This document shows positions 61,020-64,000 of a stretch of DNA of 64,000 nucleotides, in pieces. Each line of letters opens with the position of its first letter. Within the stretch, counting starts at the first letter, position 1. A program made the translations under genes and the position numbers. Source of the DNA: Natrinema salaciae (GTDB lineage: Archaea > Halobacteriota > Halobacteria > Halobacteriales > Natrialbaceae); the NCBI RefSeq assembly GCF_900110865.1, contig NZ_FOFD01000001.1, positions 620,001-684,000 on the forward strand. Reading direction: 5' to 3'. Under the pieces are notes generated by a model. That model did no database searches. It saw only the letters and a list, made by a program, of their open reading frames with translations, and was not told the origin of the DNA.

Positions 61020-61263
61020 GACGACGCTCCTGCTTCTCGCCGCGGTCGCGACGATCGCTCCGACTGTAACGGGCGGCCGAGTCGCGCTCGACTCGTGGCA
61101 CTCGTTCTGAGACCGATTTCCGCCAGGCTCGTCACGGCGTCGGCAGACCGACCCGACTCTCGAGTGTTCGACGGACACGAGTCGAATGTATCAATCTTCC
61201 AATTTATATTCACTCACTCCTACCATGATTCGTAGTAAATTTTTAGTGTACGTATCGGGACGT

Positions 61264-64000
61264 ATGGATGTAATGGTTGATGAAAGATCACACCACACAT
61301 TCGAATCGTACGGGAGACGGGGAGTACTCGGCGGTATGGCGTCACTGCTCGCGGCGTCGGCTTACTCGCTGAACGTTTCGGCGCACGCGGCCTCGCCGGT
61401 CTGTGGGGGCGACGATTCGGCGACGCAGACGGTGTCCTCGCCCGACGGCAGCGTCGCCGTAACCGTCGACGTCGGCGACGGGACGCCGTCCTACAGCGTC
61501 TCGTTCGAGGGGACGACCGTCATCGAGCCCTCCTGTCTCGGGTTCGAGTTCCAGCGCCAGTCGCCGTTCGGCGTCGGCGGCGACGCGACCGATATCGCCG
61601 TCACTGGAAGCGAACGGACGACGGTCGACACGTGCTGGGAACCGGTCTGGGATCGGTACGACGAGATCCGCGAACACTACACCGAACTCCGACTCGGTCT
61701 CGAGGAGACCGCGGGACCGGGTCGGGCCGGCACCCTCGAGCTGCGGGTGTTCGACGACGGCCTCGGATTCCGGTTCCTCTTCGACGAGAGCTTCGGCGAC
61801 CAGTTCGTCATCACGTCCGAGCGGACCCAGTACGCCTTCGCCGAGGATTACGAGTCGTGGTGGATTCCCAACGACTACAACAACTTCGAAGTGGAGTACG
61901 AGGAGACATCGCTGAGCGAGATCGGCTCGACGCTCGAAGACGAGCTGGGCGGCGAGTTCGACGGCGTCCACACGCCGATGACGATGCGGACGGCCGACGA
62001 TCGCTACCTCAGCGTCCACGAGGCGAACCTCGACGACTACGCGTCGCTGGCGATCGCGCCGCAGGAGAGCGGCGACACCGAGTTCGAGTCGACCCTCGCG
62101 CCGCTTCCCGACGGAACGAAAGTGTCCGCGTCCGCCCCTCACGTGACGCCGTGGCGGACGATCCAGCTCGGCGACCGGCCGGGCGACCTCGTCGAATCGA
62201 ACCTCATCGTCAACCTCAACGACGACTACAGCGACGACGTGTTCACGCAGGGGACCGACTGGATCGAACCCCAGAAGTTCATCGGCGTCTGGTGGCTGAT
62301 GATCACCGGCCGAGCCGACTGGGAGTACCAGGGCCCGCAGACCGGCAACCACGGCGCACAGACCGGCCGGGCGAAGCAGTACATGGACTTCGCGAGCGAG
62401 CACGACATCCCGGGCGTGCTCGTCGAGGGCTGGAACCAGGGCTGGTCGAGCTACCCGGGTGACGGGAGCGAGCTCGATTTCACCGAACCGTATCCCGACT
62501 TCGACCTCGAGGGAGTGACCGACTACGGCGCGAGCCTCGAGCCGCCGACGCAGATGACGATGCACAACGAGACGGCGGGGGACTTTCGCAACTACGAGTC
62601 CCAGCTCGAGGCGGCGTTCGGGCTGTACGACGACCTCGGGATCCGAACGATCAAGAACGGCTACGTCGCCGACAGCGGCAATCTGGCCGGAGAGGGGTTC
62701 AACCACCACAATCAGGTGCTGGTCAACCACCACACGCTGGTCGCGGAGACCGCGGCGGCAAACCGGCAGCTGCTCGACATCCACGAGCCGATCCACCCGA
62801 CCGGCCGCCGCCGGACCTACCCCAACCTGATGACGCGTGAGGGCGTGAAAGGCCAGGAGTACGACGCGTTCGGCAACGTCAGCCCCGCCCACCACGTCAC
62901 CTTCCCGTTCACGCGGATGCTCGGCGGTCCCGTCGAGTACACGCCGGGGATCTTCGACATGGACTCCGGCTCCGGCGGCATCGAGACGACGCGGGCCAAA
63001 CAGCTCGCGATGTACCCGACGTACTTCAGCGGCCTCCAGATGGTCGCGGACCTGCCGAGTTCCTATCTGGCCGATCAGCCCGCGACGCTCCGCGTCGGGG
63101 AGGTCGCGCAGGCCCAACACGCCGAGCTGGACGGGTTCGTCACGCAGTCCGAGTGGGCCCACGCGCAGGGCGAAGCGTACGTCCCCGTCGACGCCAACAG
63201 CGTCGACAACGGGTCGACGGCCACCTGGACGCTCGAGGACGTCGACGCCGGCGAGTACGACGTCCACCTCCGAGTGGCGAACTACGAGGCCGACAACGGC
63301 CTTGGGGACGGCGTCGACGCGACGGCTACCCTCCGAATCGACGGCGAGCCGGTCGAGCAGCTGTCGATCCCGGGAACCGACTACTGGGACGTCTGGACGG
63401 CGACGGCGACGACCGTCTCGCTCGAGGCCGGAGACACCGACCTCTCCATCGCGCTGACCGACGCGGACACCGGCGGCTTCAACCTCGATGCGATCGCCGT
63501 CACGGCGCCCGGCGAGTCGATGCCGGAACCCGAGGAGCCGCCGATCACCGGCCCGACGGTTCCCGCGTTCCAGTTCATCGAGGACGTCCCGGCTGCGGGC
63601 TGGGACGACACGCGCGTCCTGGACGCATCGATCGGTGAGTACATGATCACCGCCCGGCAGAAAGACGAGGAGTGGTACGTCGGCGCGATGACCGACGAGA
63701 ACGGCCGTGCGCTCGAGATCCCGCTCGACTTCCTCGAGTCCGGTCACGGCTGGTGGGACGACGACTGCGGTTGGTGGGATGACGGAGACCACGACTGGGG
63801 AGACGATGACGACGACCACGGCTGGGGCCGAGGTCAGCGAGAAGGAAACGGCGACGGTCACCGGAAGGGACGCGGTCGCGGCCACGAAAAGGGGCGCGGC
63901 AAAGGCCACGCCAAAGGAAACGGCCGAGGCCACGAGAAAAAACGCGGACAGGGGCGAGACCGTGGACCGAGCCACACGGACGACAAGTACGTCGCGGAGA
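61264..64000 (+). CDS. Secreted GH97 glycosidase with inserted carbohydrate-binding domain (3' end missing)
   Basis: Open from ATG 61264 to the window edge, at least 912 residues. A Tat-type leader (ESYGRRGVLGGMASLLAASAY) is followed by a beta-super-sandwich, then the GH97 barrel: FIGVWWLMITG, VLVEGWNQGW, RRRTYPNLMTREGVKGQEYDAFG, and VEYTPGIFDM. A CBM35/6-like domain (63160-63510) and a linker (EPEEPPITGP) lie before the C-terminal GH97 domain (IEDVPAAGWDDTRVLDASIGEYMITARQKDEEWYVGAMTD). That domain is interrupted by a Trp/Asp-rich then Lys/Arg/His/Gly-rich repeat. GH97 enzymes are alpha-glucosidases or alpha-galactosidases. Confidence 0.88.
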   Translation, partial: MDVMVDERSHHTFESYGRRGVLGGMASLLAASAYSLNVSAHAASPVCGGDDSATQTVSSPDGSVAVTVDVGDGTPSYSVSFEGTTVIEPSCLGFEFQRQSPFGVGGDATDIAVTGSERTTVDTCWEPVWDRYDEIREHYTELRLGLEETAGPGRAGTLELRVFDDGLGFRFLFDESFGDQFVITSERTQYAFAEDYESWWIPNDYNNFEVEYEETSLSEIGSTLEDELGGEFDGVHTPMTMRTADDRYLSVHEANLDDYASLAIAPQESGDTEFESTLAPLPDGTKVSASAPHVTPWRTIQLGDRPGDLVESNLIVNLNDDYSDDVFTQGTDWIEPQKFIGVWWLMITGRADWEYQGPQTGNHGAQTGRAKQYMDFASEHDIPGVLVEGWNQGWSSYPGDGSELDFTEPYPDFDLEGVTDYGASLEPPTQMTMHNETAGDFRNYESQLEAAFGLYDDLGIRTIKNGYVADSGNLAGEGFNHHNQVLVNHHTLVAETAAANRQLLDIHEPIHPTGRRRTYPNLMTREGVKGQEYDAFGNVSPAHHVTFPFTRMLGGPVEYTPGIFDMDSGSGGIETTRAKQLAMYPTYFSGLQMVADLPSSYLADQPATLRVGEVAQAQHAELDGFVTQSEWAHAQGEAYVPVDANSVDNGSTATWTLEDVDAGEYDVHLRVANYEADNGLGDGVDATATLRIDGEPVEQLSIPGTDYWDVWTATATTVSLEAGDTDLSIALTDADTGGFNLDAIAVTAPGESMPEPEEPPITGPTVPAFQFIEDVPAAGWDDTRVLDASIGEYMITARQKDEEWYVGAMTDENGRALEIPLDFLESGHGWWDDDCGWWDDGDHDWGDDDDDHGWGRGQREGNGDGHRKGRGRGHEKGRGKGHAKGNGRGHEKKRGQGRDRGPSHTDDKYVAE
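63742..63966 (+). repeat. Low-complexity insertion in the GH97 C-terminal domain
   Basis: An acidic Trp/Asp stretch (GHGWWDDDCGWWDDGDHD) is followed by a basic run of about 46 residues with short GHEKGRGKGH-type units (GRGHEKGRGKGHAKGNGRGHEKK). After it the protein resumes SHTDDKYVAE. The basic part is unusual against an acidic proteome. The DNA shows imperfect repeats of a GGCCACG-like core coding for GH. Confidence 0.7.

Follow-up and report, generated by a model that had tools for sequence, protein, structure and literature searches.

Inverting alpha-glucosidases of glycoside hydrolase family GH97, represented by SusB/BtGH97a (2jka, 2d73) and PspAG97A (5hq4), are the closest described relatives of the enzyme analyzed here, with which they share the N-domain, the barrel, the C-domain and the same constellation of catalytic and calcium-binding glutamates (as checked for four of the five). 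They differ from it in lacking a carbohydrate-binding module (CBM) between barrel and C-domain and a Glucodextran_C module, in carrying HHET where HNET is found here and, on the basis of the 8wg0 and 8wg1 alignments, in having a plain turn at the site of the loop that is our subject. Catalytic or calcium-binding roles have been assigned to SusB Glu439, 508, 526 and 532 (PMC2670981; PMC10086023), and HHET and HE motifs are described for characterized inverting GH97 enzymes of subfamily 97a (PMC10086023). The best sequence match in the PDB is FjGH97A of Flavobacterium johnsoniae (8wg0, titled as a GH97 glucodextranase), which is exo-acting and most active on alpha-1,6 linkages (PMC10316084). Unlike the protein studied here, FjGH97A has no CBM, no loop and no Glucodextran_C, and it belongs to a dextran utilisation locus. 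The neighboring genes examined around ours, by contrast, have housekeeping roles; they encode an IlvD-type dehydratase, a cytidylyltransferase-like protein, an OB/DHH protein and an HhH-GPD glycosylase, and no polysaccharide utilisation cluster is evident within a few kb. Extracellular haloarchaeal GH97s have been annotated as amylose exo-alpha-1,4-glucosidases (PMC13260240), and one of comparable length, 97A1_HALMA of Haloarcula marismortui (AAV45265, 1144 aa), was reported in 2005 as an outlying 97a member (PMC1249566); we liken it to our protein by description only, and the lines devoted to it in that report mention no loop.

Domain order and predicted activity

The window, by which we mean the whole analyzed stretch of 64,000 nucleotides (Natrinema salaciae, contig NZ_FOFD01000001.1, positions 620,001 to 684,000), ends inside a GH97 gene. 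As the initial annotation had recognized, the frame opening at ATG 61264 leaves the window; followed along the same contig it ends with a stop at 65163 (L003:1265-5164), and the adjacent sequence supplies the second half of GH97_C, then Glucodextran_C and the C-terminus of a protein of 1299 residues. The start at 61264 was chosen after that annotation and places a twin-arginine-type segment near the N-terminus; a further in-frame ATG lies upstream at 61186. The features are as follows.

61264 to 64000, continuing past the window to 65163, + strand: gene of a predicted exported GH97 glycoside hydrolase, 1299 aa
61303 to 61392, + strand: twin-arginine-type signal region, YGRRGVLGG and then a hydrophobic stretch (by eye)
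61432 to 62223, + strand: GH97_N (Pfam, residues 57-320, 209.7 bits)
62254 to 63087, + strand: GH97 catalytic barrel (Pfam Glyco_hydro_97, residues 331-608)
63112 to 63519, + strand: CBM6/CBM35-type carbohydrate-binding module between barrel and GH97_C (Pfam CBM_6, residues 643-747; structure model; structural and profile matches)
63508 to 63561, + strand: acidic Pro/Glu linker from CBM to GH97_C (internal charge control)
63562 to 63735, + strand: first half of GH97_C (Pfam, phmmer, fold model)
63736 to 63825, + strand: Trp/Asp-rich block of the insert, 30 aa, net charge -13 (alignment, charge count)
63826 to 63984, + strand: basic Gly/His/Lys/Arg part of the insert, 53 aa, net charge +9 (alignment, charge count)
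63856 to 63951, + strand: four 24-base, 8-residue units, GHRKGRGR, GHEKGRGK, GHAKGNGR and GHEKKRGQ (periodicity tests, pattern search)
63985 to 64000, + strand: start of the second half of GH97_C (KYVAEIYSDG...), extending past the window (Pfam, phmmer)

We take YGRRGVLGG and its hydrophobic stretch to be a Tat-type motif; the two arginines are kept in nearly all listed orthologues. The family assignment is secure, with all three GH97 Pfam domains (PF14508, PF10566 and PF14509) above their curated cut-offs (209.7, 280.8 and 84.7 bits against 25.3, 32.5 and 25) and all three matched in 24 of the 24 members of set A1 (E <= 0.01), and Pfam finds the same succession of barrel, CBM35/6-like domain, linker and GH97_C that had been proposed. 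The GH97_C match itself falls into two stretches (best 780-828). In phmmer comparison with a GH97 enzyme of known structure, residues 767-827 align and then, past the insert, residues 907-959; this second piece is weak alone (i-Evalue 4.1), yet it is in order and adjacent to the first in the template (650|651), so that the domain resumes after its interruption, and a failure of the GH97_C match beyond the insert, one of the initial annotation's grounds for refutation, is rejected. Beyond the window, residues 970-1068 are without a Pfam match at E <= 0.01 and are followed by Glucodextran_C at residues 1070-1290.

Among proteins of solved structure, inverting GH97 alpha-glucosidases come nearest in sequence (8wg0, E 2.7e-126; SusB 2d73, 5.6e-119), whereas the retaining alpha-galactosidase 5e1q scores far lower (2.2e-40) and the NCBIfam model of retaining GH97 alpha-galactosidases, RetAlphGalacBctrd, gives 220.7 bits, below its curated cut-off of 800. 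E436 (62569), E508 (62785), E526 (62839) and E532 (62857), the equivalents of SusB Glu439, 508, 526 and 532 (Glu base, acid and calcium-binding Glu), are each conserved in 47 of 47 orthologues; the motif around E436 reads HNET in all 47, and the HE motif is present. From the likeness to inverting members we infer an inverting, calcium-dependent exo-alpha-glucosidase acting on alpha-glucans, although HNET in place of their HHET counts against it. Going by its families, the exported enzyme would release glucose from alpha-glucan chain ends, and the CBM and Glucodextran_C would hold it on the glucan or the cell envelope.

The accessory modules add hints about the substrate. Pfam names the CBM as CBM_6 (30.7 bits, above the cut-off of 28.9), but its PDB profile and fold neighbors are mostly of CBM35 type, and CBM_35 is found in 10 of the 24 A1 members (E <= 0.01). 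The structure prediction that the initial annotation had recommended shows a module that folds well when modeled alone (pLDDT 83.4) and matches both CBM35 and CBM6 structures, the best Foldseek matches being the CITase 3wnk (E 1.1e-11) and stand-alone CBM35s. The CBM35s of enzymes acting on alpha-1,6-glucans (CITase 3wnk, GH31 5x7o, isomaltodextranase 5awo) are among its best structural and profile matches, at about 20-25% identity; here the module is inserted elsewhere in the chain. Glucodextran_C (PF09985; 180.1 bits, cut-off 22) is the C-terminal module of glucodextranase, here joined to GH97 instead of GH15. A second copy in the same genome (L108:1465-5223, G000:C2) belongs to a GH15 protein that also carries CARDB, Glucodextran_N and Glucodextran_B; this protein appears to be Tat-exported and has no basic loop. 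An alpha-1,6-glucan substrate is thus hinted at by the best PDB match being titled a glucodextranase, by the CBM relatives on dextran and cycloisomaltooligosaccharide enzymes and by the name of the C-terminal module; the GH97 scores, however, barely separate 8wg0 from SusB.

A hypervariable loop inside GH97_C

In the window copy the insert comprises 83 residues (825-907, 63736-63984), close to the 63742-63966 first proposed for a Trp/Asp-rich and then basic interruption of GH97_C. The basic part is built on an 8-residue, 24-base repeat, GHxKGxG[KR]. The best period of the loop DNA is 24 nt, equalled by none of 500 codon shuffles, and the 8-residue period of the basic part is equalled by none of 1000 residue shuffles. 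With Tandem Repeats Finder at score 30 the basic part goes unreported, and the Trp/Asp block yields a single weak array, of period 21. A DNA pattern for GHxKG-x-G has three matches in the organism's own genome, all in the GH97 gene and 24 bases apart; genus-wide, this pattern and GWW-x-D have scattered other matches, those of GHxKG-x-G being no commoner than matches of a reversed control.

Orthologues were gathered in part from a family search that matched 43 of 125 genomes, 10 of them through the C-terminal module only, and from which 30 loci were used. The 54 frames extracted were reduced to 47 aligned by leaving out five identical duplicates and two broken frames, namely one split into two in G053 (L018, G053:C1:825982-829907) and one fragmented in Haladaptatus halobius (L046). 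In a further place, G077:C4:280216-306044, several partial GH97 copies lie close together.

A loop between the strand ending in DFL and the strand KYVAEIYSDG is present in all 47 distinct haloarchaeal orthologues, and the notion that the insert is unique to the window copy, or a special feature of this gene, is thereby rejected except as regards the Trp/Asp block, which occurs in only three (the window copy, L005 and N. salsiterrestre L040, all Natrinema). Loop length ranges from 16 to 100 residues (median 35), and Gly, Asn, Lys, Arg and His usually abound. Short loops of Gly and Asn (L023-L033) stand at one extreme and, at the other, the long loops of those three Natrinema copies, which combine a Trp/Asp block with a basic part. 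Between near relatives loop identity is 49-62%, against 84-95% in the flanks. In 39 of 47 genes the loop has a GC3 below that of the remaining sequence (medians 0.79 and 0.88), which is what recent or loosely constrained sequence would show. Flanking motifs, GH..K and GHTKG, recur in several genera. The orthologue L045 (Actinarchaeum halophilum, CP071306.1) has a GRRRGH...RGHTKG loop much like those of Natrinema and sits on a long tree branch; gene transfer is possible there.

Periodicity is shared by some of these loops only. Of the 22 long enough to be tested, eight pass as 24-nt repeats, in that no other period scores better and no more than 2 of 500 codon shuffles score equally well; these are L004, L005, L013, L021, L022, L037, L040 and L053, and they come from Natrinema, Haloferax and one further genus. 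The remaining 14 do not pass. When residues are shuffled instead, each of 1000 shuffles is outdone by L004 and L005 in their basic parts and by L013, L037 and L053 in their loops. Labels for an 8-residue repeat, which we set ourselves, fall on 10 rows of the tree and require seven changes. The three copies with a Trp/Asp block are not sisters on a tree of the part preceding the loop, where they require two changes with open forks in Natrinema; this could reflect recombination, loss or a poorly settled tree, and the identity profile along the chain has no clear recombination breakpoint.

In 8wg0 there is no residue at all between the positions that flank the loop (650|651), and the barrel runs to the C-domain within a few residues (584|589) with no CBM; compared with the printed bacterial structures, the haloarchaeal family therefore shows insertions at two places, one being the CBM and the other the loop, together with a C-terminal extension. 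GH97_C occurs in 113 of 391 genomes in a class-wide search, and by a rough reading many of the matches listed break off at profile position 47-54, where the insertion lies, within frames of at least 1230 aa. Eight further GH97_C loci were scanned with the turn motif; five did not fit it and are uninformative, and the three that did, shorter haloarchaeal GH97s, have a plain turn. One of these three (L100, G068:C1:1662897-1663190) is found in the very genome that holds the orthologue with the longest loop. We take the loop of the window copy to be one state of a variable loop that all 47 orthologues examined, members of a known haloarchaeal enzyme family, possess.

For the N. salsiterrestre orthologue (1020 aa), AlphaFold2 with 24 sequences gives a model of low overall quality (mean pLDDT 60.4), and the low confidence may stem in part from the shallow alignment. 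SusB 2d73 heads the list of structure matches re-examined with this model (Z 29.6, 521 aligned, rmsd 10.2). GH97_C strands are placed before (729-767) and after (860-909) the insert, flanked directly by strands 763-767 and 860-867, and the 85 residues between (773-857) have pLDDT below 50 and no secondary structure, suggesting that the loop is disordered.

Charge contrast and readings of the loop

The orthologues as wholes carry a net charge of about -100 to -180. Of two other linkers, the one that leads from CBM to GH97_C has a negative net charge in 46 of 47 orthologues and the one preceding Glucodextran_C in all 47. Net charge of the loop is above zero in 30 of the 47, below zero in 12 and neutral in 5, and per residue it exceeds that of the CBM-GH97_C linker in every orthologue (Wilcoxon statistic 0, p = 2e-9, for rows that are not independent); the loop is also less acidic than this linker in 14 of 14 clade groups, which we chose from the tree. 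Since the loop is positive in only 30 but above the linker in all, we regard “less acidic than its surroundings” as the robust wording. The epithet “strongly basic”, applied initially, suits the basic part of the window copy (+9) but not the entire insert, which is slightly acidic (net -3 to -4, depending on the choice of ends) since the negative charge of the Trp/Asp block exceeds the positive charge of the basic part. The accompanying impression of local rarity agrees with the occurrence of Gly-rich basic 40-residue windows in 10 of 25 GH97-containing frames as against 4 of 277 other predicted frames from the same DNA, a comparison that uses crude gene picking and thresholds chosen after the loop was seen; by eye, the four other frames look like wrong-frame picks.

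On balance, we lean toward an exported inverting exo-alpha-glucosidase with a disordered, repeat-driven and length-variable surface loop that is dispensable for catalysis and, at a guess, may serve as a weak cationic arm. The insert would lengthen the turn that joins two strands of the GH97_C beta-sandwich, projecting from the domain as a disordered surface element outside catalysis; the variability of the loop, set beside the conserved active site, suggests that it is not needed for the reaction. We propose that it changes quickly in length and sequence because its 24-base coding repeat would gain and lose units, by slippage or unequal recombination. Close relatives differ in-frame but not by clean 24-base multiples, which makes slippage a plausible inference. 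In at least three Natrinema species the Trp/Asp-rich block would have been added as a second module. The flexible, weakly cationic arm would touch the acidic envelope or polysaccharide near the enzyme, contact with something acidic being suggested by the low acidic content of the loop where the other checked linkers are acidic. Taken by itself, however, this cationic function is a guess that we hold to be rather doubtful, and the Gly/Asn-rich, near-neutral loops of Haloarcula cast doubt on its being conserved across the family.

As the main rival reading, there is a substantial chance, though we stop short of calling it probable, that the loop has no function, the exposed turn tolerating any hydrophilic disordered sequence and a founder repeat having set the composition by copying itself. 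Drift of this kind would account for the extreme variation in length and sequence, the fall in identity relative to the flanks and the relaxed codon choice, and both Haloarcula and a deep clade of 13 rows manage with short or neutral loops; combined with a founder repeat, it explains much of the evidence used for the cationic arm. It fits less well with the other linkers, which are exposed to the same mutation pressure within these proteins yet remain acidic, and with the charge contrast in each clade group, which implies that something keeps Asp and Glu low; the recurrence of the flanking motifs in several genera also speaks against it.

The cationic arm can be given a stronger form, in which the loop is a dedicated tuning device, a 24-base minisatellite generating length and charge variants of the arm and so adjusting how the enzyme sticks to envelope or substrate in brine, with the Trp/Asp module as a second arm of opposite charge; we think this improbable. 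Binding of transition metals (Zn, Ni, Cu) by the His-rich part is more unlikely still: at least three His, spaced by Gly and Lys, occur in 22 of the 47 loops, but 20 have none, which weakens metal binding as a function of the whole family, and the spacing is not fixed across orthologues. We give similarly small credence to the idea that Trp/Asp block and basic part, in the three Natrinema copies that have both, pair through salt bridges and cation-pi contacts, within or between molecules, yielding salt-responsive self-association. The block is always accompanied by a basic part (3 of 3), and the charges are opposite (-13/+9, -20/+10, -25/+6), but three copies are few, structural support is absent, predicted confidence is low through the entire insert, and brine screens charges strongly. 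An assembly artefact, which the initial annotation had named as a risk, can be rejected: inserts related to this one occupy the same position in numerous assemblies made independently, several of which are complete chromosomes, and the frame is open throughout inside a 1.1-Mb contig.

We consider the enzyme itself ordinary and the loop a modest variation that seems not to have been described; in the literature listings searched, which cover few subscription papers, no title or opening of an abstract concerns such a loop, and this is weak evidence of absence. Whichever of these readings is correct, the comparison is a caution against taking such a repeat, seen in a single genome, for a special domain. 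If the loop is functionless, it offers a clean natural case of repeat turnover tolerated in a beta-turn. If instead it works, it would illustrate how a basic contact surface can be maintained by proteins of an acid-dominated proteome, and how a coding minisatellite can vary a secreted enzyme while leaving its active site untouched.
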